64,000 bases of DNA from Blastocystis sp. Blastoise (lineage: Eukaryota > Sar > Bigyra > Opalinata > Blastocystidae): contig JBBPEB010000025.1 in NCBI GenBank assembly GCA_039096225.1, forward strand, positions 809,593 to 873,592, in the 5' to 3' direction. Below are positions 9,930 to 64,000 of this stretch, piece after piece. Under the pieces are notes generated by a model. That model was given only the letters and a program-made list of their open reading frames with translations. It made no database searches and was not told where the DNA came from. A program made the translations under genes and the position numbers. The number at the start of each line of letters is the position of its first letter. The stretch's first letter is position 1.

Positions 9930-12900
9930 AATGAATTAAATAGCACCAAATCTGTTATTTACAAAAATAAAAATATAAACACGTTTCTTGTTGTTGAACC
10001 AGATAATGAGTACTGTCCACCAGGTATATTTTTATTAAAATTATTCTAATGAAGTTAGGCTCTTATTATGATGGATCTTTATGTATACAATGTCATGATG
10101 GTAACTAATTACTTAAATATTATTTATTAATTTAGGTTTTTATTCGTCGGAGAGTGTTCCAATGAGCGACGAATACATATCTGACAATTGTCCAGAGTTA
10201 TGTCCAGAGTTTTATTATTGTCCAGATGGTATAGTTTATATTTGTTAATTTCTTATAATTTTAGGTACTTCATCGCTTGAATCCGCAATAGAATGTTCAA
10301 ATGAAGGCTATTACTGTCCTATAGGATCAAGTAATATCACTGCTGTATATATTTATTGTTTAAACTATAATATTTAGGTTCCAAATGGATATTATGCAAA
10401 TACAATATCAGACGGTATAAAAACGTTATACGGAGATATATCAATATGCAAAAGAGGTATATTTGTAAAGAATATAATATTTATATAAATATAGGACATT
10501 ATTGTTCATCAGGTATACTTAATAAGTGTCCAAAAGGAACATTTAGAACAATTACAGGAGGAAAAACAATAAATGATTGTGAGAAATGTGCAGCCGGCAC
10601 ATATAGTACCACTTTAGGAAGATCTACAAAATGTACGTTGAAATGTTTAGAAGGTTATTATTGTTTAGAAGGATCTATATCATCAATTGAAAATGAATGT
10701 GGTAATGCAAATGTATATTGTCCTTTAGGTTCTTCTTCTCCTATTAATGTTCCTTTAGGTTCTTATTCTATTCCTCTTGATGTTAATTCTACAATTCGTT
10801 CTAATTTTGTTATTTGTGAAGAAGGTAATTATTGTATAGAAGGTATTAAATATTCTTGTCCATCTGGTTCTTATGGTAATGAAACTGGTCTTTATAATAA
10901 TAATTGTAGTGGTAAATGTTTAGAAGGTTATTATTGTTTAGAAGGATCTATATCATCAATTGAAAATGAATGTGGTAATGCAAATGTATATTGTCCTTTA
11001 GGTTCTTCTTCTCCTATTAATGTTCCTTTAGGTTCTTATTCTATTCCTCTTGATGTTAATTCTACAATTCGTTCTAATTTTGTTATTTGTGAAGAAGGTA
11101 ATTATTGTATAGAAGGTATTAAATATTCTTGTCCATCTGGTTCTTATGGTAATGAAACTGGTCTTTATAATAATAATTGTAGTGGTAAATGTTTAGAAGG
11201 TTATTATTGTTTAGAAGGATCTATATCATCAATTGAAAATGAATGTGGTAATGCAAATGTATATTGTCCTTTAGGTTCTTCTTCTCCTATTAATGTTCCT
11301 TTAGGTTCTTATTCTATTCCTCTTGATGTTAATTCTACAATTCGTTCTAATTTTGTTATTTGTGAAGAAGGTAATTATTGTATAGAAGGTATTAAATATT
11401 CTTGTCCATCTGGTTCTTATGGTAATGAAACTGGTCTTTATAATAATAATTGTAGTGGTAAATGTTTAGAAGGTTATTATTGTTTAGAAGGATCTATATC
11501 ATCAATTGAAAATGAATGTGGTAATGCAAATGTATATTGTCCTTTAGGTTCTTCTTCTCCTATTAATGTTCCTTTAGGTTCTTATTCTATTCCTCTTGAT
11601 GTTAATTCTACAATTCGTTCTAATTTTGTTATTTGTGAAGAAGGTAATTATTGTATAGAAGGTATTAAATATTCTTGTCCATCTGGTTCTTATGGTAATG
11701 AAACTGGTCTTTATAATAATAATTGTAGTGGTAAATGTTTAGAAGGTTATTATTGTTTAGAAGGATCTATATCATCAATTGAAAATGAATGTGGTAATGC
11801 AAATGTATATTGTCCTTTAGGTTCTTCTTCTCCTATTAATGTTCCTTTAGGTTCTTATTCTATTCCTCTTGATGTTAATTCTACAATTCGTTCTAATTTT
11901 GTTATTTGTGAAGAAGGTAATTATTGTATAGAAGGTATTAAATATTCTTGTCCATCTGGTTCTTATGGTAATGAAACTGGTCTTTATAATAATAATTGTA
12001 GTGGTAAATGTTTAGAAGGTTATTATTGTTTAGAAGGATCTATATCATCAATTGAAAATGAATGTGGTAATGCAAATGTATATTGTCCTTTAGGTTCTTC
12101 TTCTCCTATTAATGTTCCTTTAGGTTCTTATTCTATTCCTCTTGATGTTAATTCTACAATTCGTTCTAATTTTGTTATTTGTGAAGAAGGTAATTATTGT
12201 ATAGAAGGTATTAAATATTCTTGTCCATCTGGTTCTTATGGTAATGAAACTGGTCTTTATAATAATAATTGTAGTGGTAAATGTTTAGAAGGTTATTATT
12301 GTTTAGAAGGATCTATATCATCAATTGAAAATGAATGTGGTAATGCAAATGTATATTGTCCTTTAGGTTCTTCTTCTCCTATTAATGTTCCTTTAGGTTC
12401 TTATTCTATTCCTCTTGATGTTAATTCTACAATTCGTTCTAATTTTGTTATTTGTGAAGAAGGTAATTATTGTATAGAAGGTATTAAATATTCTTGTCCA
12501 TCTGGTTCTTATGGTAATGAAACTGGTCTTTATAATAATAATTGTAGTGGTAAATGTTTAGAAGGTTATTATTGTTTAGAAGGATCTATATCATCAATTG
12601 AAAATGAATGTGGTAATGCAAATGTATATTGTCCTTTAGGTTCTTCTTCTCCTATTAATGTTCCTTTAGGTTCTTATTCTATTCCTCTTGATGTTAATTC
12701 TACAATTCGTTCTAATTTTGTTATTTGTGAAGAAGGTAATTATTGTATAGAAGGTATTAAATATTCTTGTCCATCTGGTTCTTATGGTAATGAAACTGGT
12801 CTTTATAATAATAATTGTAGTGGTAAATGTTTAGAAGGTTATTATTGTTTAGAAGGATCTATATCATCAATTGAAAATGAATGTGGTAATGCAAATGTAT

Positions 12901-15900
12901 ATTGTCCTTTAGGTTCTTCTTCTCCTATTAATGTTCCTTTAGGTTCTTATTCTATTCCTCTTGATGTTAATTCTACAATTCGTTCTAATTTTGTTATTTG
13001 TGAAGAAGGTAATTATTGTATAGAAGGTATTAAATATTCTTGTCCATCTGGTTCTTATGGTAATGAAACTGGTCTTTATAATAATAATTGTAGTGGTAAA
13101 TGTTTAGAAGGTTATTATTGTTTAGAAGGATCTATATCATCAATTGAAAATGAATGTGGTAATGCAAATGTATATTGTCCTTTAGGTTCTTCTTCTCCTA
13201 TTAATGTTCCTTTAGGTTCTTATTCTATTCCTCTTGATGTTAATTCTACAATTCGTTCTAATTTTGTTATTTGTGAAGAAGGTAATTATTGTATAGAAGG
13301 TATTAAATATTCTTGTCCATCTGGTTCTTATGGTAATGAAACTGGTCTTTATAATAATAATTGTAGTGGTAAATGTTTAGAAGGTTATTATTGTTTAGAA
13401 GGATCTATATCATCAATTGAAAATGAATGTGGTAATGCAAATGTATATTGTCCTTTAGGTTCTTCTTCTCCTATTAATGTTCCTTTAGGTTCTTATTCTA
13501 TTCCTCTTGATGTTAATTCTACAATTCGTTCTAATTTTGTTATTTGTGAAGAAGGTAATTATTGTATAGAAGGTATTAAATATTCTTGTCCATCTGGTTC
13601 TTATGGTAATGAAACTGGTCTTTATAATAATAATTGTAGTGGTAAATGTTTAGAAGGTTATTATTGTTTAGAAGGATCTATATCATCAATTGAAAATGAA
13701 TGTGGTAATGCAAATGTATATTGTCCTTTAGGTTCTTCTTCTCCTATTAATGTTCCTTTAGGTTCTTATTCTATTCCTCTTGATGTTAATTCTACAATTC
13801 GTTCTAATTTTGTTATTTGTGAAGAAGGTAATTATTGTATAGAAGGTATTAAATATTCTTGTCCATCTGGTTCTTATGGTAATGAAACTGGTCTTTATAA
13901 TAATAATTGTAGTGGTAAATGTTTAGAAGGTTATTATTGTTTAGAAGGATCTATATCATCAATTGAAAATGAATGTGGTAATGCAAATGTATATTGTCCT
14001 TTAGGTTCTTCTTCTCCTATTAATGTTCCTTTAGGTTCTTATTCTATTCCTCTTGATGTTAATTCTACAATTCGTTCTAATTTTGTTATTTGTGAAGAAG
14101 GTAATTATTGTATAGAAGGTATTAAATATTCTTGTCCATCTGGTTCTTATGGTAATGAAACTGGTCTTTATAATAATAATTGTAGTGGTAAATGTTTAGA
14201 AGGTTATTATTGTTTAGAAGGATCTATATCATCAATTGAAAATGAATGTGGTAATGCAAATGTATATTGTCCTTTAGGTTCTTCTTCTCCTATTAATGTT
14301 CCTTTAGGTTCTTATTCTATTCCTCTTGATGTTAATTCTACAATTCGTTCTAATTTTGTTATTTGTGAAGAAGGTAATTATTGTATAGAAGGTATTAAAT
14401 ATTCTTGTCCATCTGGTTCTTATGGTAATGAAACTGGTCTTTATAATAATAATTGTAGTGGTAAATGTTTAGAAGGTTATTATTGTTTAGAAGGATCTAT
14501 ATCATCAATTGAAAATGAATGTGGTAATGCAAATGTATATTGTCCTTTAGGTTCTTCTTCTCCTATTAATGTTCCTTTAGGTTCTTATTCTATTCCTCTT
14601 GATGTTAATTCTACAATTCGTTCTAGTTTTGTTATTTGTGAAGAAGGTAATTATTGTATAGAAGGTATTAAATATTCTTGTCCATCTGGTTCTTATGGTA
14701 ATGAAACTGGTCTTTATAATAATAATTGTAGTGGTAAATGTTTAGAAGGTTATTATTGTTTAGAAGGATCTATATCATCAATTGAAAATGAATGTGGTAA
14801 TGCAAATGTATATTGTCCTTTAGGTTCTTCTTCTCCTATTAATGTTCCTTTAGGTTCTTATTCTATTCCTCTTGATGTTAATTCTACAATTCGTTCTAAT
14901 TTTGTTATTTGTGAAGAAGGTAATTATTGTATAGAAGGTATTAAATATTCTTGTCCATCTGGTTCTTATGGTAATGAAACTGGTCTTTATAATAATAATT
15001 GTAGTGGTAAATGTTTAGAAGGTTATTATTGTTTAGAAGGATCTATATCATCAATTGAAAATGAATGTGGTAATGCAAATGTATATTGTCCTTTAGGTTC
15101 TTCTTCTCCTATTAATGTTCCTTTAGGTTCTTATTCTATTCCTCTTGATGTTAATTCTACAATTCGTTCTAATTTTGTTATTTGTGAAGAAGGTAATTAT
15201 TGTATAGAAGGTATTAAATATTCTTGTCCATCTGGTTCTTATGGTAATGAAACTGGTCTTTATAATAATAATTGTAGTGGTAAATGTTTAGAAGGTTATT
15301 ATTGTTTAGAAGGATCTATATCATCAATTGAAAATGAATGTGGTAATGCAAATGTATATTGTCCTTTAGGTTCTTCTTCTCCTATTAATGTTCCTTTAGG
15401 TTCTTATTCTATTCCTCTTGATGTTAATTCTACAATTCGTTCTAATTTTGTTATTTGTGAAGAAGGTAATTATTGTATAGAAGGTATTAAATATTCTTGT
15501 CCATCTGGTTCTTATGGTAATGAAACTGGTCTTTATAATAATAATTGTAGTGGTAAATGTTTAGAAGGTTATTATTGTTTAGAAGGATCTATATCATCAA
15601 TTGAAAATGAATGTGGTAATGCAAATGTATATTGTCCTTTAGGTTCTTCTTCTCCTATTAATGTTCCTTTAGGTTCTTATTCTATTCCTCTTGATGTTAA
15701 TTCTACAATTCGTTCTAATTTTGTTATTTGTGAAGAAGGTAATTATTGTATAGAAGGTATTAAATATTCTTGTCCATCTGGTTCTTATGGTAATGAAACT
15801 GGTCTTTATAATAATAATTGTAGTGGTAAATGTTTAGAAGGTTATTATTGTTTAGAAGGATCTATATCATCAATTGAAAATGAATGTGGTAATGCAAATG

Positions 15901-18900
15901 TATATTGTCCTTTAGGTTCTTCTTCTCCTATTAATGTTCCTTTAGGTTCTTATTCTATTCCTCTTGATGTTAATTCTACAATTCGTTCTAATTTTGTTAT
16001 TTGTGAAGAAGGTAATTATTGTATAGAAGGTATTAAATATTCTTGTCCATCTGGTTCTTATGGTAATGAAACTGGTCTTTATAATAATAATTGTAGTGGT
16101 AAATGTTTAGAAGGTTATTATTGTTTAGAAGGATCTATATCATCAATTGAAAATGAATGTGGTAATGCAAATGTATATTGTCCTTTAGGTTCTTCTTCTC
16201 CTATTAATGTTCCTTTAGGTTCTTATTCTATTCCTCTTGATGTTAATTCTACAATTCGTTCTAATTTTGTTATTTGTGAAGAAGGTAATTATTGTATAGA
16301 AGGTATTAAATATTCTTGTCCATCTGGTTCTTATGGTAATGAAACTGGTCTTTATAATAATAATTGTAGTGGTAAATGTTTAGAAGGTTATTATTGTTTA
16401 GAAGGATCTATATCATCAATTGAAAATGAATGTGGTAATGCAAATGTATATTGTCCTTTAGGTTCTTCTTCTCCTATTAATGTTCCTTTAGGTTCTTATT
16501 CTATTCCTCTTGATGTTAATTCTACAATTCGTTCTAATTTTGTTATTTGTGAAGAAGGTAATTATTGTATAGAAGGTATTAAATATTCTTGTCCATCTGG
16601 TTCTTATGGTAATGAAACTGGTCTTTATAATAATAATTGTAGTGGTAAATGTTTAGAAGGTTATTATTGTTTAGAAGGATCTATATCATCAATTGAAAAT
16701 GAATGTGGTAATGCAAATGTATATTGTCCTTTAGGTTCTTCTTCTCCTATTAATGTTCCTTTAGGTTCTTATTCTATTCCTCTTGATGTTAATTCTACAA
16801 TTCGTTCTAATTTTGTTATTTGTGAAGAAGGTAATTATTGTATAGAAGGTATTAAATATTCTTGTCCATCTGGTTCTTATGGTAATGAAACTGGTCTTTA
16901 TAATAATAATTGTAGTGGTAAATGTTTAGAAGGTTATTATTGTTTAGAAGGATCTATATCATCAATTGAAAATGAATGTGGTAATGCAAATGTATATTGT
17001 CCTTTAGGTTCTTCTTCTCCTATTAATGTTCCTTTAGGTTCTTATTCTATTCCTCTTGATGTTAATTCTACAATTCGTTCTAATTTTGTTATTTGTGAAG
17101 AAGGTAATTATTGTATAGAAGGTATTAAATATTCTTGTCCATCTGGTTCTTATGGTAATGAAACTGGTCTTTATAATAATAATTGTAGTGGTAAATGTTT
17201 AGAAGGTTATTATTGTTTAGAAGGATCTATATCATCAATTGAAAATGAATGTGGTAATGCAAATGTATATTGTCCTTTAGGTTCTTCTTCTCCTATTAAT
17301 GTTCCTTTAGGTTCTTATTCTATTCCTCTTGATGTTAATTCTACAATTCGTTCTAATTTTGTTATTTGTGAAGAAGGTAATTATTGTATAGAAGGTATTA
17401 AATATTCTTGTCCATCTGGTTCTTATGGTAATGAAACTGGTCTTTATAATAATAATTGTAGTGGTAAATGTTTAGAAGGTTATTATTGTTTAGAAGGATC
17501 TATATCATCAATTGAAAATGAATGTGGTAATGCAAATGTATATTGTCCTTTAGGTTCTTCTTCTCCTATTAATGTTCCTTTAGGTTCTTATTCTATTCCT
17601 CTTGATGTTAATTCTACAATTCGTTCTAATTTTGTTATTTGTGAAGAAGGTAATTATTGTATAGAAGGTATTAAATATTCTTGTCCATCTGGTTCTTATG
17701 GTAATGAAACTGGTCTTTATAATAATAATTGTAGTGGTAAATGTTTAGAAGGTTATTATTGTTTAGAAGGATCTATATCATCAATTGAAAATGAATGTGG
17801 TAATGCAAATGTATATTGTCCTTTAGGTTCTTCTTCTCCTATTAATGTTCCTTTAGGTTCTTATTCTATTCCTCTTGATGTTAATTCTACAATTCGTTCT
17901 AATTTTGTTATTTGTGAAGAAGGTAATTATTGTATAGAAGGTATTAAATATTCTTGTCCATCTGGTTCTTATGGTAATGAAACTGGTCTTTATAATAATA
18001 ATTGTAGTGGTAAATGTTTAGAAGGTTATTATTGTTTAGAAGGATCTATATCATCAATTGAAAATGAATGTGGTAATGCAAATGTATATTGTCCTTTAGG
18101 TTCTTCTTCTCCTATTAATGTTCCTTTAGGTTCTTATTCTATTCCTCTTGATGTTAATTCTACAATTCGTTCTAATTTTGTTATTTGTGAAGAAGGTAAT
18201 TATTGTATAGAAGGTATTAAATATTCTTGTCCATCTGGTTCTTATGGTAATGAAACTGGTCTTTATAATAATAATTGTAGTGGTAAATGTTTAGAAGGTT
18301 ATTATTGTTTAGAAGGATCTATATCATCAATTGAAAATGAATGTGGTAATGCAAATGTATATTGTCCTTTAGGTTCTTCTTCTCCTATTAATGTTCCTTT
18401 AGGTTCTTATTCTATTCCTCTTGATGTTAATTCTACAATTCGTTCTAATTTTGTTATTTGTGAAGAAGGTAATTATTGTATAGAAGGTATTAAATATTCT
18501 TGTCCATCTGGTTCTTATGGTAATGAAACTGGTCTTTATAATAATAATTGTAGTGGTAAATGTTTAGAAGGTTATTATTGTTTAGAAGGATCTATATCAT
18601 CAATTGAAAATGAATGTGGTAATGCAAATGTATATTGTCCTTTAGGTTCTTCTTCTCCTATTAATGTTCCTTTAGGTTCTTATTCTATTCCTCTTGATGT
18701 TAATTCTACAATTCGTTCTAATTTTGTTATTTGTGAAGAAGGTAATTATTGTATAGAAGGTATTAAATATTCTTGTCCATCTGGTTCTTATGGTAATGAA
18801 ACTGGTCTTTATAATAATAATTGTAGTGGTAAATGTTTAGAAGGTTATTATTGTTTAGAAGGATCTATATCATCAATTGAAAATGAATGTGGTAATGCAA

Positions 18901-21900
18901 ATGTATATTGTCCTTTAGGTTCTTCTTCTCCTATTAATGTTCCTTTAGGTTCTTATTCTATTCCTCTTGATGTTAATTCTACAATTCGTTCTAATTTTGT
19001 TATTTGTGAAGAAGGTAATTATTGTATAGAAGGTATTAAATATTCTTGTCCATCTGGTTCTTATGGTAATGAAACTGGTCTTTATAATAATAATTGTAGT
19101 GGTAAATGTTTAGAAGGTTATTATTGTTTAGAAGGATCTATATCATCAATTGAAAATGAATGTGGTAATGCAAATGTATATTGTCCTTTAGGTTCTTCTT
19201 CTCCTATTAATGTTCCTTTAGGTTCTTATTCTATTCCTCTTGATGTTAATTCTACAATTCGTTCTAATTTTGTTATTTGTGAAGAAGGTAATTATTGTAT
19301 AGAAGGTATTAAATATTCTTGTCCATCTGGTTCTTATGGTAATGAAACTGGTCTTTATAATAATAATTGTAGTGGTAAATGTTTAGAAGGTTATTATTGT
19401 TTAGAAGGATCTATATCATCAATTGAAAATGAATGTGGTAATGCAAATGTATATTGTCCTTTAGGTTCTTCTTCTCCTATTAATGTTCCTTTAGGTTCTT
19501 ATTCTATTCCTCTTGATGTTAATTCTACAATTCGTTCTAATTTTGTTATTTGTGAAGAAGGTAATTATTGTATAGAAGGTATTAAATATTCTTGTCCATC
19601 TGGTTCTTATGGTAATGAAACTGGTCTTTATAATAATAATTGTAGTGGTAAATGTTTAGAAGGTTATTATTGTTTAGAAGGATCTATATCATCAATTGAA
19701 AATGAATGTGGTAATGCAAATGTATATTGTCCTTTAGGTTCTTCTTCTCCTATTAATGTTCCTTTAGGTTCTTATTCTATTCCTCTTGATGTTAATTCTA
19801 CAATTCGTTCTAATTTTGTTATTTGTGAAGAAGGTAATTATTGTATAGAAGGTATTAAATATTCTTGTCCATCTGGTTCTTATGGTAATGAAACTGGTCT
19901 TTATAATAATAATTGTAGTGGTAAATGTTTAGAAGGTTATTATTGTTTAGAAGGATCTATATCATCAATTGAAAATGAATGTGGTAATGCAAATGTATAT
20001 TGTCCTTTAGGTTCTTCTTCTCCTATTAATGTTCCTTTAGGTTCTTATTCTATTCCTCTTGATGTTAATTCTACAATTCGTTCTAATTTTGTTATTTGTG
20101 AAGAAGGTAATTATTGTATAGAAGGTATTAAATATTCTTGTCCATCTGGTTCTTATGGTAATGAAACTGGTCTTTATAATAATAATTGTAGTGGTAAATG
20201 TTTAGAAGGTTATTATTGTTTAGAAGGATCTATATCATCAATTGAAAATGAATGTGGTAATGCAAATGTATATTGTCCTTTAGGTTCTTCTTCTCCTATT
20301 AATGTTCCTTTAGGTTCTTATTCTATTCCTCTTGATGTTAATTCTACAATTCGTTCTAATTTTGTTATTTGTGAAGAAGGTAATTATTGTATAGAAGGTA
20401 TTAAATATTCTTGTCCATCTGGTTCTTATGGTAATGAAACTGGTCTTTATAATAATAATTGTAGTGGTAAATGTTTAGAAGGTTATTATTGTTTAGAAGG
20501 ATCTATATCATCAATTGAAAATGAATGTGGTAATGCAAATGTATATTGTCCTTTAGGTTCTTCTTCTCCTATTAATGTTCCTTTAGGTTCTTATTCTATT
20601 CCTCTTGATGTTAATTCTACAATTCGTTCTAATTTTGTTATTTGTGAAGAAGGTAATTATTGTATAGAAGGTATTAAATATTCTTGTCCATCTGGTTCTT
20701 ATGGTAATGAAACTGGTCTTTATAATAATAATTGTAGTGGTAAATGTTTAGAAGGTTATTATTGTTTAGAAGGATCTATATCATCAATTGAAAATGAATG
20801 TGGTAATGCAAATGTATATTGTCCTTTAGGTTCTTCTTCTCCTATTAATGTTCCTTTAGGTTCTTATTCTATTCCTCTTGATGTTAATTCTACAATTCGT
20901 TCTAATTTTGTTATTTGTGAAGAAGGTAATTATTGTATAGAAGGTATTAAATATTCTTGTCCATCTGGTTCTTATGGTAATGAAACTGGTCTTTATAATA
21001 ATAATTGTAGTGGTAAATGTTTAGAAGGTTATTATTGTTTAGAAGGATCTATATCATCAATTGAAAATGAATGTGGTAATGCAAATGTATATTGTCCTTT
21101 AGGTTCTTCTTCTCCTATTAATGTTCCTTTAGGTTCTTATTCTATTCCTCTTGATGTTAATTCTACAATTCGTTCTAATTTTGTTATTTGTGAAGAAGGT
21201 AATTATTGTATAGAAGGTATTAAATATTCTTGTCCATCTGGTTCTTATGGTAATGAAACTGGTCTTTATAATAATAATTGTAGTGGTAAATGTTTAGAAG
21301 GTTATTATTGTTTAGAAGGATCTATATCATCAATTGAAAATGAATGTGGTAATGCAAATGTATATTGTCCTTTAGGTTCTTCTTCTCCTATTAATGTTCC
21401 TTTAGGTTCTTATTCTATTCCTCTTGATGTTAATTCTACAATTCGTTCTAATTTTGTTATTTGTGAAGAAGGTAATTATTGTATAGAAGGTATTAAATAT
21501 TCTTGTCCATCTGGTTCTTATGGTAATGAAACTGGTCTTTATAATAATAATTGTAGTGGTAAATGTTTAGAAGGTTATTATTGTTTAGAAGGATCTATAT
21601 CATCAATTGAAAATGAATGTGGTAATGCAAATGTATATTGTCCTTTAGGTTCTTCTTCTCCTATTAATGTTCCTTTAGGTTCTTATTCTATTCCTCTTGA
21701 TGTTAATTCTACAATTCGTTCTAATTTTGTTATTTGTGAAGAAGGTAATTATTGTATAGAAGGTATTAAATATTCTTGTCCATCTGGTTCTTATGGTAAT
21801 GAAACTGGTCTTTATAATAATAATTGTAGTGGTAAATGTTTAGAAGGTTATTATTGTTTAGAAGGATCTATATCATCAATTGAAAATGAATGTGGTAATG

Positions 21901-48900: not shown

Positions 48901-51900
48901 CATCAATTGAAAATGAATGTGGTAATGCAAATGTATATTGTCCTTTAGGTTCTTCTTCTCCTATTAATGTTCCTTTAGGTTCTTATTCTATTCCTCTTGA
49001 TGTTAATTCTACAATTCGTTCTAATTTTGTTATTTGTGAAGAAGGTAATTATTGTATAGAAGGTATTAAATATTCTTGTCCATCTGGTTCTTATGGTAAT
49101 GAAACTGGTCTTTATAATAATAATTGTAGTGGTAAATGTTTAGAAGGTTATTATTGTTTAGAAGGATCTATATCATCAATTGAAAATGAATGTGGTAATG
49201 CAAATGTATATTGTCCTTTAGGTTCTTCTTCTCCTATTAATGTTCCTTTAGGTTCTTATTCTATTCCTCTTGATGTTAATTCTACAATTCGTTCTAATTT
49301 TGTTATTTGTGAGATCGGTAGTTATTGTATAGAAGGTATTAAATATTCTTGTCCATCTGGTTCTTATGGTAATGAAACTGGTCTTTATAATAATAATTGT
49401 AGTGGTAAATGTTTAGAAGGTTATTATTGTTTAGAAGGATCTATATCATCAATTGAAAATGAATGTGGTAATGCAAATGTATATTGTCCTTTAGGTTCTT
49501 CTTCTCCTATTAATGTTCCTTTAGGTTCTTATTCTATTCCTCTTGATGTTAATTCTACAATTCGTTCTAATTTTGTTATTTGTGAAGAAGGTAATTATTG
49601 TATAGAAGGTATTAAATATTCTTGTCCATCTGGTTCTTATGGTAATGAAACTGGTCTTTATAATAATAATTGTAGTGGTAAATGTTTAGAAGGTTATTAT
49701 TGTTTAGAAGGATCTATATCATCAATTGAAAATGAATGTGGTAATGCAAATGTATATTGTCCTTTAGGTTCTTCTTCTCCTATTAATGTTCCTTTAGGTT
49801 CTTATTCTATTCCTCTTGATGTTAATTCTACAATTCGTTCTAATTTTGTTATTTGTGAAGAAGGTAATTATTGTATAGAAGGTATTAAATATTCTTGTCC
49901 ATCTGGTTCTTATGGTAATGAAACTGGTCTTTATAATAATAATTGTAGTGGTAAATGTTTAGAAGGTTATTATTGTTTAGAAGGATCTATATCATCAATT
50001 GAAAATGAATGTGGTAATGCAAATGTATATTGTCCTTTAGGTTCTTCTTCTCCTATTAATGTTCCTTTAGGTTCTTATTCTATTCCTCTTGATGTTAATT
50101 CTACAATTCGTTCTAATTTTGTTATTTGTGAAGAAGGTAATTATTGTATAGAAGGTATTAAATATTCTTGTCCATCTGGTTCTTATGGTAATGAAACTGG
50201 TCTTTTATAATAATAATTGTAGTGGTAAATGTTTAGAAGGTTATTATTGTTTAGAAGGATCTATATCATCAATTGAAAATGAATGTGGTAATGCAAATGT
50301 ATATTGTCCTTTAGGTTCTTCTTCTCCTATTAATGTTCCTTTAGGTTCTTATTCTATTCCTCTTGATGTTAATTCTACAATTCGTTCTAATTTTGTTATT
50401 TGTGAAGAAGGTAATTATTGTATAGAAGGTATTAAATATTCTTGTCCATCTGGTTCTTATGGTAATGAAACTGGTCTTTATAATAATAATTGTAGTGGTA
50501 AATGTTTAGAAGGTTATTATTGTTTAGAAGGATCTATATCATCAATTGAAAATGAATGTGGTAATGCAAATGTATATTGTCCTTTAGGTTCTTCTTCTCC
50601 TATTAATGTTCCTTTAGGTTCTTATTCTATTCCTCTTGATGTTAATTCTACAATTCGTTCTAATTTTGTTATTTGTGAAGAAGGTAATTATTGTATAGAA
50701 GGTATTAAATATTCTTGTCCATCTGGTTCTTATGGTAATGAAACTGGTCTTTATAATAATAATTGTAGTGGTAAATGTTTAGAAGGTTATTATTGTTTAG
50801 AAGGATCTATATCATCAATTGAAAATGAATGTGGTAATGCAAATGTATATTGTCCTTTAGGTTCTTCTTCTCCTATTAATGTTCCTTTAGGTTCTTATTC
50901 TATTCCTCTTGATGTTAATTCTACAATTCGTTCTAATTTTGTTATTTGTGAAGAAGGTAATTATTGTATAGAAGGTATTAAATATTCTTGTCCATCTGGT
51001 TCTTATGGTAATGAAACTGGTCTTTATAATAATAATTGTAGTGGTAAATGTTTAGAAGGTTATTATTGTTTAGAAGGATCTATATCATCAATTGAAAATG
51101 AATGTGGTAATGCAAATGTATATTGTCCTTTAGGTTCTTCTTCTCCTATTAATGTTCCTTTAGGTTCTTATTCTATTCCTCTTGATGTTAATTCTACAAT
51201 TCGTTCTAATTTTGTTATTTGTGAAGAAGGTAATTATTGTATAGAAGGTATTAAATATTCTTGTCCATCTGGTTCTTATGGTAATGAAACTGGTCTTTAT
51301 AATAATAATTGTAGTGGTAAATGTTTAGAAGGTTATTATTGTTTAGAAGGATCTATATCATCAATTGAAAATGAATGTGGTAATGCAAATGTATATTGTC
51401 CTTTAGGTTCTTCTTCTCCTATTAATGTTCCTTTAGGTTCTTATTCTATTCCTCTTGATGTTAATTCTACAATTCGTTCTAATTTTGTTATTTGTGAAGA
51501 AGGTAATTATTGTATAGAAGGTATTAAATATTCTTGTCCATCTGGTTCTTATGGTAATGAAACTGGTCTTTATAATAATAATTGTAGTGGTAAATGTTTA
51601 GAAGGTTATTATTGTTTAGAAGGATCTATATCATCAATTGAAAATGAATGTGGTAATGCAAATGTATATTGTCCTTTAGGTTCTTCTTCTCCTATTAATG
51701 TTCCTTTAGGTTCTTATTCTATTCCTCTTGATGTTAATTCTACAATTCGTTCTAATTTTGTTATTTGTGAAGAAGGTAATTATTGTATAGAAGGTATTAA
51801 ATATTCTTGTCCATCTGGTTCTTATGGTAATGAAACTGGTCTTTATAATAATAATTGTAGTGGTAAATGTTTAGAAGGTTATTATTGTTTAGAAGGATCT

Positions 51901-54900
51901 ATATCATCAATTGAAAATGAATGTGGTAATGCAAATGTATATTGTCCTTTAGGTTCTTCTTCTCCTATTAATGTTCCTTTAGGTTCTTATTCTATTCCTC
52001 TTGATGTTAATTCTACAATTCGTTCTAATTTTGTTATTTGTGAAGAAGGTAATTATTGTATAGAAGGTATTAAATATTCTTGTCCATCTGGTTCTTATGG
52101 TAATGAAACTGGTCTTTATAATAATAATTGTAGTGGTAAATGTTTAGAAGGTTATTATTGTTTAGAAGGATCTATATCATCAATTGAAAATGAATGTGGT
52201 AATGCAAATGTATATTGTCCTTTAGGTTCTTCTTCTCCTATTAATGTTCCTTTAGGTTCTTATTCTATTCCTCTTGATGTTAATTCTACAATTCGTTCTA
52301 ATTTTGTTATTTGTGAAGAAGGTAATTATTGTATAGAAGGTATTAAATATTCTTGTCCATCTGGTTCTTATGGTAATGAAACTGGTCTTTATAATAATAA
52401 TTGTAGTGGTAAATGTTTAGAAGGTTATTATTGTTTAGAAGGATCTATATCATCAATTGAAAATGAATGTGGTAATGCAAATGTATATTGTCCTTTAGGT
52501 TCTTCTTCTCCTATTAATGTTCCTTTAGGTTCTTATTCTATTCCTCTTGATGTTAATTCTACAATTCGTTCTAATTTTGTTATTTGTGAAGAAGGTAATT
52601 ATTGTATAGAAGGTATTAAATATTCTTGTCCATCTGGTTCTTATGGTAATGAAACTGGTCTTTATAATAATAATTGTAGTGGTAAATGTTTAGAAGGTTA
52701 TTATTGTTTAGAAGGATCTATATCATCAATTGAAAATGAATGTGGTAATGCAAATGTATATTGTCCTTTAGGTTCTTCTTCTCCTATTAATGTTCCTTTA
52801 GGTTCTTATTCTATTCCTCTTGATGTTAATTCTACAATTCGTTCTAATTTTGTTATTTGTGAAGAAGGTAATTATTGTATAGAAGGTATTAAATATTCTT
52901 GTCCATCTGGTTCTTATGGTAATGAAACTGGTCTTTATAATAATAATTGTAGTGGTAAATGTTTAGAAGGTTATTATTGTTTAGAAGGATCTATATCATC
53001 AATTGAAAATGAATGTGGTAATGCAAATGTATATTGTCCTTTAGGTTCTTCTTCTCCTATTAATGTTCCTTTAGGTTCTTATTCTATTCCTCTTGATGTT
53101 AATTCTACAATTCGTTCTAATTTTGTTATTTGTGAAGAAGGTAATTATTGTATAGAAGGTATTAAATATTCTTGTCCATCTGGTTCTTATGGTAATGAAA
53201 CTGGTCTTTATAATAATAATTGTAGTGGTAAATGTTTAGAAGGTTATTATTGTTTAGAAGGATCTATATCATCAATTGAAAATGAATGTGGTAATGCAAA
53301 TGTATATTGTCCTTTAGGTTCTTCTTCTCCTATTAATGTTCCTTTAGGTTCTTATTCTATTCCTCTTGATGTTAATTCTACAATTCGTTCTAATTTTGTT
53401 ATTTGTGAAGAAGGTAATTATTGTATAGAAGGTATTAAATATTCTTGTCCATCTGGTTCTTATGGTAATGAAACTGGTCTTTATAATAATAATTGTAGTG
53501 GTAAATGTTTAGAAGGTTATTATTGTTTAGAAGGATCTATATCATCAATTGAAAATGAATGTGGTAATGCAAATGTATATTGTCCTTTAGGTTCTTCTTC
53601 TCCTATTAATGTTCCTTTAGGTTCTTATTCTATTCCTCTTGATGTTAATTCTACAATTCGTTCTAATTTTGTTATTTGTGAAGAAGGTAATTATTGTATA
53701 GAAGGTATTAAATATTCTTGTCCATCTGGTTCTTATGGTAATGAAACTGGTCTTTATAATAATAATTGTAGTGGTAAATGTTTAGAAGGTTATTATTGTT
53801 TAGAAGGATCTATATCATCAATTGAAAAATGAATGTGGTAATGCAAATGTATATTGTCCTTTAGGTTCTTCTTCTCCTATTAATGTTCCTTTAGGTTCTT
53901 ATTCTATTCCTCTTGATGTTAATTCTACAATTCGTTCTAATTTTGTTATTTGTGAAGAAGGTAATTATTGTATAGAAGGTATTAAATATTCTTGTCCATC
54001 TGGTTCTTATGGTAATGAAACTGGTCTTTATAATAATAATTGTAGTGGTAAATGTTTAGAAGGTTATTATTGTTTAGAAGGATCTATATCATCAATTGAA
54101 AATGAATGTGGTAATGCAAATGTATATTGTCCTTTAGGTTCTTCTTCTCCTATTAATGTTCCTTTAGGTTCTTATTCTATTCCTCTTGATGTTAATTCTA
54201 CAATTCGTTCTAATTTTGTTATTTGTGAAGAAGGTAATTATTGTATAGAAGGTATTAAATATTCTTGTCCATCTGGTTCTTATGGTAATGAAACTGGTCT
54301 TTATAATAATAATTGTAGTGGTAAATGTTTAGAAGGTTATTATTGTTTAGAAGGATCTATATCATCAATTGAAAATGAATGTGGTAATGCAAATGTATAT
54401 TGTCCTTTAGGTTCTTCTTCTCCTATTAATGTTCCTTTAGGTTCTTATTCTATTCCTCTTGATGTTAATTCTACAATTCGTTCTAATTTTGTTATTTGTG
54501 AAGAAGGTAATTATTGTATAGAAGGTATTAAATATTCTTGTCCATCTGGTTCTTATGGTAATGAAACTGGTCTTTATAATAATAATTGTAGTGGTAAATG
54601 TTTAGAAGGTTATTATTGTTTAGAAGGATCTATATCATCAATTGAAAATGAATGTGGTAATGCAAATGTATATTGTCCTTTAGGTTCTTCTTCTCCTATT
54701 AATGTTCCTTTAGGTTCTTATTCTATTCCTCTTGATGTTAATTCTACAATTCGTTCTAATTTTGTTATTTGTGAAGAAGGTAATTATTGTATAGAAGGTA
54801 TTAAATATTCTTGTCCATCTGGTTCTTATGGTAATGAAACTGGTCTTTATAATAATAATTGTAGTGGTAAATGTTTAGAAGGTTATTATTGTTTAGAAGG

Positions 54901-57900
54901 ATCTATATCATCAATTGAAAATGAATGTGGTAATGCAAATGTATATTGTCCTTTAGGTTCTTCTTCTCCTATTAATGTTCCTTTAGGTTCTTATTCTATT
55001 CCTCTTGATGTTAATTCTACAATTCGTTCTAATTTTGTTATTTGTGAAGAAGGTAATTATTGTATAGAAGGTATTAAATATTCTTGTCCATCTGGTTCTT
55101 ATGGTAATGAAACTGGTCTTTATAATAATAATTGTAGTGGTAAATGTTTAGAAGGTTATTATTGTTTAGAAGGATCTATATCATCAATTGAAAATGAATG
55201 TGGTAATGCAAATGTATATTGTCCTTTAGGTTCTTCTTCTCCTATTAATGTTCCTTTAGGTTCTTATTCTATTCCTCTTGATGTTAATTCTACAATTCGT
55301 TCTAATTTTGTTATTTGTGAAGAAGGTAATTATTGTATAGAAGGTATTAAATATTCTTGTCCATCTGGTTCTTATGGTAATGAAACTGGTCTTTATAATA
55401 ATAATTGTAGTGGTAAATGTTTAGAAGGTTATTATTGTTTAGAAGGATCTATATCATCAATTGAAAATGAATGTGGTAATGCAAATGTATATTGTCCTTT
55501 AGGTTCTTCTTCTCCTATTAATGTTCCTTTAGGTTCTTATTCTATTCCTCTTGATGTTAATTCTACAATTCGTTCTAATTTTGTTATTTGTGAAGAAGGT
55601 AATTATTGTATAGAAGGTATTAAATATTCTTGTCCATCTGGTTCTTATGGTAATGAAACTGGTCTTTATAATAATAATTGTAGTGGTAAATGTTTAGAAG
55701 GTTATTATTGTTTAGAAGGATCTATATCATCAATTGAAAATGAATGTGGTAATGCAAATGTATATTGTCCTTTAGGTTCTTCTTCTCCTATTAATGTTCC
55801 TTTAGGTTCTTATTCTATTCCTCTTGATGTTAATTCTACAATTCGTTCTAATTTTGTTATTTGTGAAGAAGGTAATTATTGTATAGAAGGTATTAAATAT
55901 TCTTGTCCATCTGGTTCTTATGGTAATGAAACTGGTCTTTATAATAATAATTGTAGTGGTAAATGTTTAGAAGGTTATTATTGTTTAGAAGGATCTATAT
56001 CATCAATTGAAAATGAATGTGGTAATGCAAATGTATATTGTCCTTTAGGTTCTTCTTCTCCTATTAATGTTCCTTTAGGTTCTTATTCTATTCCTCTTGA
56101 TGTTAATTCTACAATTCGTTCTAATTTTGTTATTTGTGAAGAAGGTAATTATTGTATAGAAGGTATTAAATATTCTTGTCCATCTGGTTCTTATGGTAAT
56201 GAAACTGGTCTTTATAATAATAATTGTAGTGGTAAATGTTTAGAAGGTTATTATTGTTTAGAAGGATCTATATCATCAATTGAAAATGAATGTGGTAATG
56301 CAAATGTATATTGTCCTTTAGGTTCTTCTTCTCCTATTAATGTTCCTTTAGGTTCTTATTCTATTCCTCTTGATGTTAATTCTACAATTCGTTCTAATTT
56401 TGTTATTTGTGAAGAAGGTAATTATTGTATAGAAGGTATTAAATATTCTTGTCCATCTGGTTCTTATGGTAATGAAACTGGTCTTTATAATAATAATTGT
56501 AGTGGTAAATGTTTAGAAGGTTATTATTGTTTAGAAGGATCTATATCATCAATTGAAAATGAATGTGGTAATGCAAATGTATATTGTCCTTTAGGTTCTT
56601 CTTCTCCTATTAATGTTCCTTTAGGTTCTTATTCTATTCCTCTTGATGTTAATTCTACAATTCGTTCTAATTTTGTTATTTGTGAAGAAGGTAATTATTG
56701 TATAGAAGGTATTAAATATTCTTGTCCATCTGGTTCTTATGGTAATGAAACTGGTCTTTATAATAATAATTGTAGTGGTAAATGTTTAGAAGGTTATTAT
56801 TGTTTAGAAGGATCTATATCATCAATTGAAAATGAATGTGGTAATGCAAATGTATATTGTCCTTTAGGTTCTTCTTCTCCTATTAATGTTCCTTTAGGTT
56901 CTTATTCTATTCCTCTTGATGTTAATTCTACAATTCGTTCTAATTTTGTTATTTGTGAAGAAGGTAATTATTGTATAGAAGGTATTAAATATTCTTGTCC
57001 ATCTGGTTCTTATGGTAATGAAACTGGTCTTTATAATAATAATTGTAGTGGTAAATGTTTAGAAGGTTATTATTGTTTAGAAGGATCTATATCATCAATT
57101 GAAAATGAATGTGGTAATGCAAATGTATATTGTCCTTTAGGTTCTTCTTCTCCTATTAATGTTCCTTTAGGTTCTTATTCTATTCCTCTTGATGTTAATT
57201 CTACAATTCGTTCTAATTTTGTTATTTGTGAAGAAGGTAATTATTGTATAGAAGGTATTAAATATTCTTGTCCATCTGGTTCTTATGGTAATGAAACTGG
57301 TCTTTATAATAATAATTGTAGTGGTAAATGTTTAGAAGGTTATTATTGTTTAGAAGGATCTATATCATCAATTGAAAATGAATGTGGTAATGCAAATGTA
57401 TATTGTCCTTTAGGTTCTTCTTCTCCTATTAATGTTCCTTTAGGTTCTTATTCTATTCCTCTTGATGTTAATTCTACAATTCGTTCTAATTTTGTTATTT
57501 GTGAAGAAGGTAATTATTGTATAGAAGGTATTAAATATTCTTGTCCATCTGGTTCTTATGGTAATGAAACTGGTCTTTATAATAATAATTGTAGTGGTAA
57601 ATGTTTAGAAGGTTATTATTGTTTAGAAGGATCTATATCATCAATTGAAAATGAATGTGGTAATGCAAATGTATATTGTCCTTTAGGTTCTTCTTCTCCT
57701 ATTAATGTTCCTTTAGGTTCTTATTCTATTCCTCTTGATGTTAATTCTACAATTCGTTCTAATTTTGTTATTTGTGAAGAAGGTAATTATTGTATAGAAG
57801 GTATTAAATATTCTTGTCCATCTGGTTCTTATGGTAATGAAACTGGTCTTTATAATAATAATTGTAGTGGTAAATGTTTAGAAGGTTATTATTGTTTAGA

Positions 57901-60900
57901 AGGATCTATATCATCAATTGAAAATGAATGTGGTAATGCAAATGTATATTGTCCTTTAGGTTCTTCTTCTCCTATTAATGTTCCTTTAGGTTCTTATTCT
58001 ATTCCTCTTGATGTTAATTCTACAATTCGTTCTAATTTTGTTATTTGTGAAGAAGGTAATTATTGTATAGAAGGTATTAAATATTCTTGTCCATCTGGTT
58101 CTTATGGTAATGAAACTGGTCTTTATAATAATAATTGTAGTGGTAAATGTTTAGAAGGTTATTATTGTTTAGAAGGATCTATATCATCAATTGAAAATGA
58201 ATGTGGTAATGCAAATGTATATTGTCCTTTAGGTTCTTCTTCTCCTATTAATGTTCCTTTAGGTTCTTATTCTATTCCTCTTGATGTTAATTCTACAATT
58301 CGTTCTAATTTTGTTATTTGTGAAGAAGGTAATTATTGTATAGAAGGTATTAAATATTCTTGTCCATCTGGTTCTTATGGTAATGAAACTGGTCTTTATA
58401 ATAATAATTGTAGTGGTAAATGTTTAGAAGGTTATTATTGTTTAGAAGGATCTATATCATCAATTGAAAATGAATGTGGTAATGCAAATGTATATTGTCC
58501 TTTAGGTTCTTCTTCTCCTATTAATGTTCCTTTAGGTTCTTATTCTATTCCTCTTGATGTTAATTCTACAATTCGTTCTAATTTTGTTATTTGTGAAGAA
58601 GGTAATTATTGTATAGAAGGTATTAAATATTCTTGTCCATCTGGTTCTTATGGTAATGAAACTGGTCTTTATAATAATAATTGTAGTGGTAAATGTTTAG
58701 AAGGTTATTATTGTTTAGAAGGATCTATATCATCAATTGAAAATGAATGTGGTAATGCAAATGTATATTGTCCTTTAGGTTCTTCTTCTCCTATTAATGT
58801 TCCTTTAGGTTCTTATTCTATTCCTCTTGATGTTAATTCTACAATTCGTTCTAATTTTGTTATTTGTGAAGAAGGTAATTATTGTATAGAAGGTATTAAA
58901 TATTCTTGTCCATCTGGTTCTTATGGTAATGAAACTGGTCTTTATAATAATAATTGTAGTGGTAAATGTTTAGAAGGTTATTATTGTTTAGAAGGATCTA
59001 TATCATCAATTGAAAATGAATGTGGTAATGCAAATGTATATTGTCCTTTAGGTTCTTCTTCTCCTATTAATGTTCCTTTAGGTTCTTATTCTATTCCTCT
59101 TGATGTTAATTCTACAATTCGTTCTAATTTTGTTATTTGTGAAGAAGGTAATTATTGTATAGAAGGTATTAAATATTCTTGTCCATCTGGTTCTTATGGT
59201 AATGAAACTGGTCTTTATAATAATAATTGTAGTGGTAAATGTTTAGAAGGTTATTATTGTTTAGAAGGATCTATATCATCAATTGAAAATGAATGTGGTA
59301 ATGCAAATGTATATTGTCCTTTAGGTTCTTCTTCTCCTATTAATGTTCCTTTAGGTTCTTATTCTATTCCTCTTGATGTTAATTCTACAATTCGTTCTAA
59401 TTTTGTTATTTGTGAAGAAGGTAATTATTGTATAGAAGGTATTAAATATTCTTGTCCATCTGGTTCTTATGGTAATGAAACTGGTCTTTATAATAATAAT
59501 TGTAGTGGTAAATGTTTAGAAGGTTATTATTGTTTAGAAGGATCTATATCATCAATTGAAAATGAATGTGGTAATGCAAATGTATATTGTCCTTTAGGTT
59601 CTTCTTCTCCTATTAATGTTCCTTTAGGTTCTTATTCTATTCCTCTTGATGTTAATTCTACAATTCGTTCTAATTTTGTTATTTGTGAAGAAGGTAATTA
59701 TTGTATAGAAGGTATTAAATATTCTTGTCCATCTGGTTCTTATGGTAATGAAACTGGTCTTTATAATAATAATTGTAGTGGTAAATGTTTAGAAGGTTAT
59801 TATTGTTTAGAAGGATCTATATCATCAATTGAAAATGAATGTGGTAATGCAAATGTATATTGTCCTTTAGGTTCTTCTTCTCCTATTAATGTTCCTTTAG
59901 GTTCTTATTCTATTCCTCTTGATGTTAATTCTACAATTCGTTCTAATTTTGTTATTTGTGAAGAAGGTAATTATTGTATAGAAGGTATTAAATATTCTTG
60001 TCCATCTGGTTCTTATGGTAATGAAACTGGTCTTTATAATAATAATTGTAGTGGTAAATGTTTAGAAGGTTATTATTGTTTAGAAGGATCTATATCATCA
60101 ATTGAAAATGAATGTGGTAATGCAAATGTATATTGTCCTTTAGGTTCTTCTTCTCCTATTAATGTTCCTTTAGGTTCTTATTCTATTCCTCTTGATGTTA
60201 ATTCTACAATTCGTTCTAATTTTGTTATTTGTGAAGAAGGTAATTATTGTATAGAAGGTATTAAATATTCTTGTCCATCTGGTTCTTATGGTAATGAAAC
60301 TGGTCTTTATAATAATAATTGTAGTGGTAAATGTTTAGAAGGTTATTATTGTTTAGAAGGATCTATATCATCAATTGAAAATGAATGTGGTAATGCAAAT
60401 GTATATTGTCCTTTAGGTTCTTCTTCTCCTATTAATGTTCCTTTAGGTTCTTATTCTATTCCTCTTGATGTTAATTCTACAATTCGTTCTAATTTTGTTA
60501 TTTGTGAAGAAGGTAATTATTGTATAGAAGGTATTAAATATTCTTGTCCATCTGGTTCTTATGGTAATGAAACTGGTCTTTATAATAATAATTGTAGTGG
60601 TAAATGTTTAGAAGGTTATTATTGTTTAGAAGGATCTATATCATCAATTGAAAATGAATGTGGTAATGCAAATGTATATTGTCCTTTAGGTTCTTCTTCT
60701 CCTATTAATGTTCCTTTAGGTTCTTATTCTATTCCTCTTGATGTTAATTCTACAATTCGTTCTAATTTTGTTATTTGTGAAGAAGGTAATTATTGTATAG
60801 AAGGTATTAAATATTCTTGTCCATCTGGTTCTTATGGTAATGAAACTGGTCTTTATAATAATAATTGTAGTGGTAAATGTTTAGAAGGTTATTATTGTTT

Positions 60901-63900
60901 AGAAGGATCTATATCATCAATTGAAAATGAATGTGGTAATGCAAATGTATATTGTCCTTTAGGTTCTTCTTCTCCTATTAATGTTCCTTTAGGTTCTTAT
61001 TCTATTCCTCTTGATGTTAATTCTACAATTCGTTCTAATTTTGTTATTTGTGAAGAAGGTAATTATTGTATAGAAGGTATTAAATATTCTTGTCCATCTG
61101 GTTCTTATGGTAATGAAACTGGTCTTTATAATAATAATTGTAGTGGTAAATGTTTAGAAGGTTATTATTGTTTAGAAGGATCTATATCATCAATTGAAAA
61201 TGAATGTGGTAATGCAAATGTATATTGTCCTTTAGGTTCTTCTTCTCCTATTAATGTTCCTTTAGGTTCTTATTCTATTCCTCTTGATGTTAATTCTACA
61301 ATTCGTTCTAATTTTGTTATTTGTGAAGAAGGTAATTATTGTATAGAAGGTATTAAATATTCTTGTCCATCTGGTTCTTATGGTAATGAAACTGGTCTTT
61401 ATAATAATAATTGTAGTGGTAAATGTTTAGAAGGTTATTATTGTTTAGAAGGATCTATATCATCAATTGAAAATGAATGTGGTAATGCAAATGTATATTG
61501 TCCTTTAGGTTCTTCTTCTCCTATTAATGTTCCTTTAGGTTCTTATTCTATTCCTCTTGATGTTAATTCTACAATTCGTTCTAATTTTGTTATTTGTGAA
61601 GAAGGTAATTATTGTATAGAAGGTATTAAATATTCTTGTCCATCTGGTTCTTATGGTAATGAAACTGGTCTTTATAATAATAATTGTAGTGGTAAATGTT
61701 TAGAAGGTTATTATTGTTTAGAAGGATCTATATCATCAATTGAAAATGAATGTGGTAATGCAAATGTATATTGTCCTTTAGGTTCTTCTTCTCCTATTAA
61801 TGTTCCTTTAGGTTCTTATTCTATTCCTCTTGATGTTAATTCTACAATTCGTTCTAATTTTGTTATTTGTGAAGAAGGTAATTATTGTATAGAAGGTATT
61901 AAATATTCTTGTCCATCTGGTTCTTATGGTAATGAAACTGGTCTTTATAATAATAATTGTAGTGGTAAATGTTTAGAAGGTTATTATTGTTTAGAAGGAT
62001 CTATATCATCAATTGAAAATGAATGTGGTAATGCAAATGTATATTGTCCTTTAGGTTCTTCTTCTCCTATTAATGTTCCTTTAGGTTCTTATTCTATTCC
62101 TCTTGATGTTAATTCTACAATTCGTTCTAATTTTGTTATTTGTGAAGAAGGTAATTATTGTATAGAAGGTATTAAATATTCTTGTCCATCTGGTTCTTAT
62201 GGTAATGAAACTGGTCTTTATAATAATAATTGTAGTGGTAAATGTTTAGAAGGTTATTATTGTTTAGAAGGATCTATATCATCAATTGAAAATGAATGTG
62301 GTAATGCAAATGTATATTGTCCTTTAGGTTCTTCTTCTCCTATTAATGTTCCTTTAGGTTCTTATTCTATTCCTCTTGATGTTAATTCTACAATTCGTTC
62401 TAATTTTGTTATTTGTGAAGAAGGTAATTATTGTATAGAAGGTATTAAATATTCTTGTCCATCTGGTTCTTATGGTAATGAAACTGGTCTTTATAATAAT
62501 AATTGTAGTGGTAAATGTTTAGAAGGTTATTATTGTTTAGAAGGATCTATATCATCAATTGAAAATGAATGTGGTAATGCAAATGTATATTGTCCTTTAG
62601 GTTCTTCTTCTCCTATTAATGTTCCTTTAGGTTCTTATTCTATTCCTCTTGATGTTAATTCTACAATTCGTTCTAATTTTGTTATTTGTGAAGAAGGTAA
62701 TTATTGTATAGAAGGTATTAAATATTCTTGTCCATCTGGTTCTTATGGTAATGAAACTGGTCTTTATAATAATAATTGTAGTGGTAAATGTTTAGAAGGT
62801 TATTATTGTTTAGAAGGATCTATATCATCAATTGAAAATGAATGTGGTAATGCAAATGTATATTGTCCTTTAGGTTCTTCTTCTCCTATTAATGTTCCTT
62901 TAGGTTCTTATTCTATTCCTCTTGATGTTAATTCTACAATTCGTTCTAATTTTGTTATTTGTGAAGAAGGTAATTATTGTATAGAAGGTATTAAATATTC
63001 TTGTCCATCTGGTTCTTATGGTAATGAAACTGGTCTTTATAATAATAATTGTAGTGGTAAATGTTTAGAAGGTTATTATTGTTTAGAAGGATCTATATCA
63101 TCAATTGAAAATGAATGTGGTAATGCAAATGTATATTGTCCTTTAGGTTCTTCTTCTCCTATTAATGTTCCTTTAGGTTCTTATTCTATTCCTCTTGATG
63201 TTAATTCTACAATTCGTTCTAATTTTGTTATTTGTGAAGAAGGTAATTATTGTATAGAAGGTATTAAATATTCTTGTCCATCTGGTTCTTATGGTAATGA
63301 AACTGGTCTTTATAATAATAATTGTAGTGGTAAATGTTTAGAAGGTTATTATTGTTTAGAAGGATCTATATCATCAATTGAAAATGAATGTGGTAATGCA
63401 AATGTATATTGTCCTTTAGGTTCTTCTTCTCCTATTAATGTTCCTTTAGGTTCTTATTCTATTCCTCTTGATGTTAATTCTACAATTCGTTCTAATTTTG
63501 TTATTTGTGAAGAAGGTAATTATTGTATAGAAGGTATTAAATATTCTTGTCCATCTGGTTCTTATGGTAATGAAACTGGTCTTTATAATAATAATTGTAG
63601 TGGTAAATGTTTAGAAGGTTATTATTGTTTAGAAGGATCTATATCATCAATTGAAAATGAATGTGGTAATGCAAATGTATATTGTCCTTTAGGTTCTTCT
63701 TCTCCTATTAATGTTCCTTTAGGTTCTTATTCTATTCCTCTTGATGTTAATTCTACAATTCGTTCTAATTTTGTTATTTGTGAAGAAGGTAATTATTGTA
63801 TAGAAGGTATTAAATATTCTTGTCCATCTGGTTCTTATGGTAATGAAACTGGTCTTTATAATAATAATTGTAGTGGTAAATGTTTAGAAGGTTATTATTG

Positions 63901-64000
63901 TTTAGAAGGATCTATATCATCAATTGAAAATGAATGTGGTAATGCAAATGTATATTGTCCTTTAGGTTCTTCTTCTCCTATTAATGTTCCTTTAGGTTCT
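9870..64000 (+). CDS. giant secreted cysteine-rich repeat protein, 3' end beyond window
   Basis: Proposed exons are 9870-10023, 10059-10100, 10136-10228, 10265-10344, 10378-10456 and 10495 to beyond 64000. Residues 1-20 (MQNFKTAIFLLWLFFIPGFC) form a signal peptide, so the product should enter the secretory pathway. Residues 49-87 are cysteine-rich (CPPGSYY, CIQCHDG). Residues 88-178 are a diverged unit with eight cysteines. Residues 161-196 (CPKGTF...CAAGTYS...C) look like the GCC2/GCC3 ephrin-receptor-like family. From residue 199 onward 91-residue units repeat without interruption. Discounting two single-base insertions, the window encodes 17,984 residues. Taken literally, it stops at 50208-50210 after 13,387. 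No transmembrane segment, kinase or anchor is visible; any lies downstream. An extracellular or surface structural/adhesive role is inferred. The ATG was chosen because it gives a signal peptide and every splice restores a cysteine-rich frame homologous to the array. Confidence 0.85.
10024..10058 (+). other. intron 1, 35 bp
   Basis: GTATAT donor and GTTAG acceptor, phase 1 inside a glycine codon (G|GC). Retention would hit an in-frame TAA. Splicing joins EYCPPG to SYYDGSLC. Confidence 0.8.
10101..10135 (+). other. intron 2, 35 bp
   Basis: GTAACT donor and TTTAG acceptor, phase 1 inside a glycine codon (G|GT). Retention gives an immediate TAA. Splicing joins CIQCHDG to FYSSES. Confidence 0.8.
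10229..10264 (+). other. intron 3, 36 bp
   Basis: GTATAG donor and TTTAG acceptor, phase 1 in a glycine codon (G|GT). Its length is a multiple of three but it holds an in-frame TAA. Splicing joins FYYCPDG to TSSLESAIEC, matching YYCLEG-SISSIENEC of the array unit. Confidence 0.85.
10345..10377 (+). other. intron 4, 33 bp
   Basis: GTATAT donor and TTTAG acceptor, phase 0. The in-frame reading ends in TAG at the acceptor. Splicing joins CPIGSSNITA to VPNGYY, matching CPLGSSSPIN-VPLGSY in the array. A GTAATA at 10331 was rejected as donor because it breaks this homology and the frame. Confidence 0.85.
10457..10494 (+). other. intron 5, 38 bp
   Basis: GTATAT donor and TATAG acceptor, phase 1 in a glycine codon (G|GA). 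Splicing joins ICKRG to HYCSSG, matching ICEEG-NYCIEG in the array. Translation starting at the ATG at 10446 reads through this intron and loses the signal peptide, so that start is wrong. Confidence 0.85.
14626..14626 (+). other. single substitution in array copy 15 (N to S)
   Basis: TCTAATTTT of the consensus is TCTAGTTTT here, changing IRSNFV to IRSSFV. It is the only isolated substitution I noticed in the array. Confidence 0.85.
49313..49321 (+). other. five-base variant patch in array copy 142
   Basis: Consensus GAAGAAGGTAATTAT reads GAGATCGGTAGTTAT, changing CEEGNYC to CEIGSYC. All five differences fall within nine bases while the rest of the unit is consensus. This resembles a short conversion tract from a diverged copy rather than independent mutations. 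Confidence 0.85.
50203..50206 (+). other. +1 frameshift in array copy 145 (T3 to T4)
   Basis: GGTCTTTATAAT of the consensus is GGTCTTTTATAAT. The shift produces TAA at 50208-50210. The downstream array is intact in the next frame. An ATG at 50185 opens a new frame here, but it lies within the repeat and is not a plausible gene start. Confidence 0.9.
53825..53829 (+). other. +1 frameshift in array copy 159 (A4 to A5)
   Basis: TTGAAAATGAA of the consensus is TTGAAAAATGAA, so the frame entered after copy 145 ends in TGA at 53830-53832. The array then continues open in the third frame to the window edge. Confidence 0.9.

Follow-up and report, generated by a model that had tools for sequence, protein, structure and literature searches.

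Two tandem arrays of near-identical cysteine-rich modules in Blastocystis, and a candidate gene for a giant secreted rod protein

The right-hand end of one contig of the Blastocystis sp. Blastoise genome (assembly GCA_039096225.1, contig JBBPEB010000025.1, here C18; 64,000 nucleotides at positions 809,593 to 873,592 of the forward strand, hereafter the window) is occupied by a tandem array of near-identical 273-bp coding units that is entered in frame from a spliced 5' end. We lean towards reading this as the array and 5' end of a gene whose product is a secreted, rod-forming glycoprotein in the megadalton range. Under this proposal the protein would be secreted, each module would add about 3.5 nm of disulfide-braced, N-glycosylated rod, and one chain would form a fibre outside the cell, about 0.7 micrometre or more long, its length fixed by the number of repeats in the gene. 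Breaks in the assembled frame would be consensus errors, a 3' end outside the assembly would encode the C-terminal part seen in short neighbouring paralogues, and recombination, by unequal exchange and conversion between loci, would keep identical the arrays that we find at two loci. What is best supported is a secreted, disulfide-braced, glycosylated megadalton rod produced by copying one module, which could alike be an element of a hair, a coat or a wall. A preliminary description of this DNA had proposed a giant secreted filament, tether, sheath or adhesive, an interpretation that is supported in part.

Tandem Repeats Finder reports a single array at 10641-64000 on the plus strand (period 273, 195.5 copies, 99% match), which comprises 195 complete units and 123 bases of a 196th. 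A unit-by-unit script placed 196 unit starts, spaced 273 bp apart in 193 of the 195 intervals and 274 bp apart in the other two. Letter identity extends to 191 of the 193 units of 273 bp; the exceptions are unit 15 (14463-14735), with one substitution (A to G at unit position 164), and unit 142 (49134-49406), where five substitutions cluster at unit positions 180-183 and 188. The 126 successive units from 16 to 141 carry no distinguishing base, and there are no decayed units at the 5' edge. The unit encodes a module of 91 residues with 8 cysteines, 3 N-glycosylation sequons and 5 prolines (9.7 kDa, pI about 4.1). The preliminary description thus counted correctly in giving at least 195 near-identical units of 91 codons, eight cysteines and three sequons, and in stating that the end of the array is not reached in the window, whose final base is also the final base of C18. 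The unit is open in one of six frames only, and a chance open reading frame (ORF) can be ruled out, since a whole-unit frame was open in any of the six frames in just 40 of 20,000 dinucleotide shuffles and relatives of the module are found at E values down to 1e-88.

The span of 10641 to 64000 previously given fits the array and not the start of the gene, which lies upstream at an ATG at 9870. From there, five GT..AG introns of 33-38 nt, the first placed by frame continuity, leave an open frame of 198 residues without a stop from 9870 to 10640, in frame with unit 1 and containing several cysteine-rich pieces. Exon 1 (9870-10023) carries the start codon and a hydrophobic N-terminus that, read by eye, resembles a signal peptide. 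There follow intron 1 (10024-10058, 35 nt), exon 2 (10059-10100), intron 2 (10101-10135, 35 nt), the cysteine-rich exon 3 (10136-10228), intron 3 (10229-10264, 36 nt), exon 4 (10265-10344), intron 4 (10345-10377, 33 nt), exon 5 (10378-10456) and intron 5 (10457-10494, 38 nt), all on the plus strand. The last exon seen (10495-64000) opens with a diverged cysteine-rich lead-in (10495-10640) and continues into the array, its 3' end lying outside the assembly as far as searched.

Through the first 144 units of the window the frame is kept with zero indels. Units 145 (49953-50226) and 159 (53776-54049) are 274 bp long, with an extra T in a T run and an extra A in an A run, respectively; both insertions shift the frame, so that the list of ORFs breaks at about 50.2 and 53.8 kb. 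The array earlier described as head-to-tail coding units in one exon is therefore not continuous in frame. Likewise, the figure of more than 17,900 residues holds only if both insertions are ignored (17,984 codons for the window part of the protein), whereas as assembled the first insertion lies about 13,386 codons from the ATG and the protein would end after about 13,390 codons.

The unit recurs at a second locus. In the genome of 33.3 Mb and 34 contigs (labelled C1-C34), a 23-base piece of the unit has 411 matches, all on one strand with a reverse count of 0 (masked stretches are unseen by this search); 196 lie in the window and 215 fit an array on C34, so the unit occurs on two of the 34 contigs. 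The C34 array extends from 966538 to the final base of its contig, or 215.0 units, a number that comes from its length and the match count, the array itself having been read in part; the last 100 bases of C34 are unit sequence. It too has a spliced start, with an ATG at 965804 and six introns of 36-43 nt leading in frame into the array, at a point of entry into the unit that differs from that on C18. Four insertions were located in the two arrays, all +1 in short homopolymers: the T and A on C18, and on C34 an A in the second complete unit and a C near 1009327. The +1 A is the same in both (window 53818-53841; C34:966952-966975), occurring once per array and nowhere else in the genome, and is either a variant shared by the two arrays or a recurrent error. 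For all four, the simplest reading is residual sequencing error, although they could be real mutations.

Both contigs end within their arrays, each on the plus strand at a right-hand end (of these ends, those of C18 and C19-C34 were read), and the unit was not found at any contig start in the first 600 bases of all 34, those of C14 being all N. In the assembly as searched there are thus two 5' ends without a 3' end; the 3' end that was to be sought further along C18 is not there, the contig stopping inside the array at the last base of the window. That C18 and C34 are the two ends of one array was rejected, as both enter it on the plus strand at right-hand ends, the reverse count is 0 and the 600 bases read at each contig start (all N on C14) lack the unit. 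Two alleles of one locus are unlikely, since the flanking short paralogues differ strongly (33% identity across the greater part of their C-terminal region) and the only DNA match of the upstream exons on C18 is to themselves. Because an identical array stands in register with two different genes, we infer recent exchange between loci rather than a chance misjoin. Two peptide patterns scanned against viral contigs returned nothing that would indicate a viral origin.

The unit had been likened to GCC2/GCC3 domains (PF07699, Ephrin_rec_like). Searching three units against Pfam gave nothing convincing, with no PF07699 row at E <= 1 and the unit below that family's curated cut-off of 23.1 bits; an alignment of 33 sequences, comprising the unit and 32 of its 49 relatives, contains five with a PF07699 match at E <= 0.01, and the unit is not one of them. 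The relatives come from a search of 5.8 billion proteins (8,000 candidates scored), which yielded 49 at E <= 0.001, the best five 36-45% identical; the 34-residue distance between CxxGxxC motifs seen in the unit (spacing 34 and 57) recurs in 24 of these 49. Three modules are predicted to fold as one continuous, confident all-beta structure, and the model has the form of a growth-factor-receptor-type continuous cysteine-rich rod. Its best solved match is the cysteine-rich MST1 shaft of the Chlamydomonas mastigoneme (PDB 9b4h, 8wa2, 8tx1), which covers all three modules at 20% structural identity; weaker matches include Eph receptor and thyroglobulin chains. Silk, mucin and EGF-rod families were not among the fold matches listed, an absence that does not exclude them. 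Sequence homology to MST1 was not found when solved chains were searched with a single query (E <= 1) and with two profiles.

In being a very long repetitive coding sequence, the array resembles those of titin, mucins and silk fibroin, whose known repeats are diverged or of low complexity, in contrast to the letter-identical 91-residue cysteine modules here. With PF07699 the module shares a cysteine-glycine style, whereas its two-part, 91-residue plan with 34/57 CxxGxxC spacing is distinct. Elapor1 is not known as a tandem-repeat filament. The alignment to its ectodomain (PDB 9vqm) covers part of the three-module model only. MST1 (residues to about 1,950) is described as polymerising as antiparallel dimers in two strands and as containing Ig-like domains along with a polyproline helix; a separate 8,572-residue protein, MST3, is proposed to set length (PMC11015965). 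Here, by contrast, a single chain would span the fibre, and no polyproline stretch is seen in the parts of the gene present in the assembly, the unit (5 prolines in 91 residues) and the upstream exons. With no sequence match to MST1, we do not class the unit as a member of the MST1-like mastigoneme shafts. No described protein of this kind was recognised in the literature by titles and the starts of abstracts, which is weak evidence of absence.

The best guide to the 3' end of the array gene is a pair of short paralogues on the opposite strand to the arrays and divergent from them, one about 20 kb upstream on C18 (7064-9941 of the stretch read, L010, minus strand) and one about 290 bases upstream on C34 (598-3014 of L093, minus strand). 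Each has a signal-like start, tiny introns (read by eye), about one module, a C-terminal part and a stop; their modules are identical to the unit at 54 of 127 and 52 of 102 residues. The C-terminus of the C18 paralogue resembles HRM (PF02793) at 21.2 bits (E = 4e-4), below the cut-off of 26.2 bits. Used as a query, this C-terminal part gave 17 matches overall, its own exons included, among them the C34 copy (33% identical) and parts of large open frames elsewhere. One of these, an 8,813-residue frame on C33, terminates in a C-terminal part of the paralogue type (2.8 kb read; L097, L098); its middle shows no tandem repeat in the 1.5 kb read and looks extracellular by eye. No membrane region, such as the 7TM region of an adhesion-GPCR-type protein, was seen by eye before the stop in either short paralogue or the C33 frame. 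One of five relatives of the paralogue exon comes from a record for the brown alga Hapterophycus canaliculatus.

Codon usage bears on whether the array is translated. Fourfold-degenerate codons of the unit end in T in 32 of 39 cases, and in this the unit does not differ from actin (156 of 172, p = 0.15), the giant C33 frame (198 of 232, p = 0.63) or a fragment of the actin family on C2 (45 of 64, p = 0.24). It does differ from the short paralogues, with 59 of 120 (p = 3e-4) and 58 of 114 (p = 6e-4), and from the upstream exons of its own gene, with 22 of 75 (p = 1e-7). Outside these comparisons, the T fraction is 0.66 of 87 in the C-terminal exon of the C18 paralogue and 0.89 of 144 at the end of the C33 frame; a large frame on C26 has 0.59 of 167, and a hAT-like ORF of the window 0.56 of 114. 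Selection for efficient translation could yield the bias of the unit, which is measured on 39 codons counted once despite their copying.

Array length is the main doubt, because units 16-141 are markerless and both arrays run off their contigs. Were the insertions genuine, translation on C34 would terminate shortly past the one in the second complete unit. One alternative is that module and gene family are real and the array length is a product of assembly, the true gene being shorter or of a different length. We think this unlikely: ends within the array on both contigs, the long run of units without a distinguishing base, and four indels that are all +1 in short homopolymer runs, as in residual long-read consensus error, are what it predicts, but two different flanks enter long arrays at different unit registers, each in frame, and rare interior variants have been retained rather than averaged out. 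More improbable still is a young coding-derived satellite, in which an exon module was amplified and spread to two loci, the frames are truly broken and giant protein is scarcely made, if at all. Near-perfect identity, a 5' edge free of decayed units, a unit common to two loci and frameshifts in both arrays, on C34 as early as the second complete unit, would suit such a satellite. It fits poorly with codon usage like that of actin and another giant ORF and unlike that of the upstream exons, with 144 initial units in frame without an indel, with intact spliced starts at both loci, and with the confinement of all 411 matches (196 and 215 units) to two of 34 contigs, masked stretches unseen.

Other readings concern what the protein does. 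It is conceivable, though on present evidence somewhat unlikely, that it is secreted to serve in a coat, cyst wall or matrix, perhaps with a binding or decoy role, forming a dense cross-linked glycoprotein layer and not a filament. Eight cysteines and three sequons per 91 residues with a pI of about 4.1 would suit such a layer, a giant ORF that is non-tandem in the 1.5 kb read is among the distant relatives of the C-terminal part, and GCC2/GCC3 cysteine-rich families and a cysteine-rich cyst protein are described from other protists (PMC9843837, PMC1762436). Against this, the best structural match is a filament protein that spans all three modules, and identical repeats favour a regular polymer. 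The boldest form of the rod proposal, possible but less likely than not, is a genetically encoded covalent fibre, in which a single chain with at least 200 letter-identical disulfide modules, of about 2 MDa or more, would be a whole extracellular hair of the mastigoneme type. DNA copy number, which recombination would keep uniform and exchange between the two loci, would then itself be the length ruler, in place of the polymerised monomers and separate ruler proposed for Chlamydomonas. A genome search for the ciliary protein IFT46 (PF12317) gave 0 candidates, with no positive control run.

If the length is as assembled, this protist makes a very large repetitive extracellular protein from DNA-identical modules at two loci with strongly diverged flanking genes, providing a test case for homogenisation of tandem coding arrays between loci and for repeat number as the length setter of a surface fibre. 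The relatives in metagenomes and the brown-alga record suggest that the cysteine-rich shaft of the mastigoneme may be one application of a broader type of module.

The window also holds mobile-element-like sequence upstream of the gene. A palindromic element at 1875-6215 has nested inverted arms (up to 427 nt, 94%) and contains the hAT-like ORF, of 476 codons on the minus strand (3589-5019), which is rich in AAAGTTGCGAC repeats and bears a weak likeness to the hAT dimerisation domain (PF05699, E = 0.015, below the cut-off). At 7687-8294 lies a short element resembling a miniature inverted-repeat transposable element, with 181-nt inverted arms that are 98% complementary and 246 nt apart. Elsewhere in the genome, the last 100 bases of C20 and C33 (L078, L091) differ by a single base and are probably a subtelomeric or dispersed repeat. 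In stretches read from C9 (L094), C12 (L095) and C27 (L096), gene-rich mitochondrial DNA is present on two contigs, with nad3, rps12, rps7 and rpl16-like frames recognised by eye and nad7 by a search whose best matches are 91% and 73-75% identical and whose 120 listed rows include Chattonella marina; the end of C27 carries, by eye, the start of an 18S rRNA gene.
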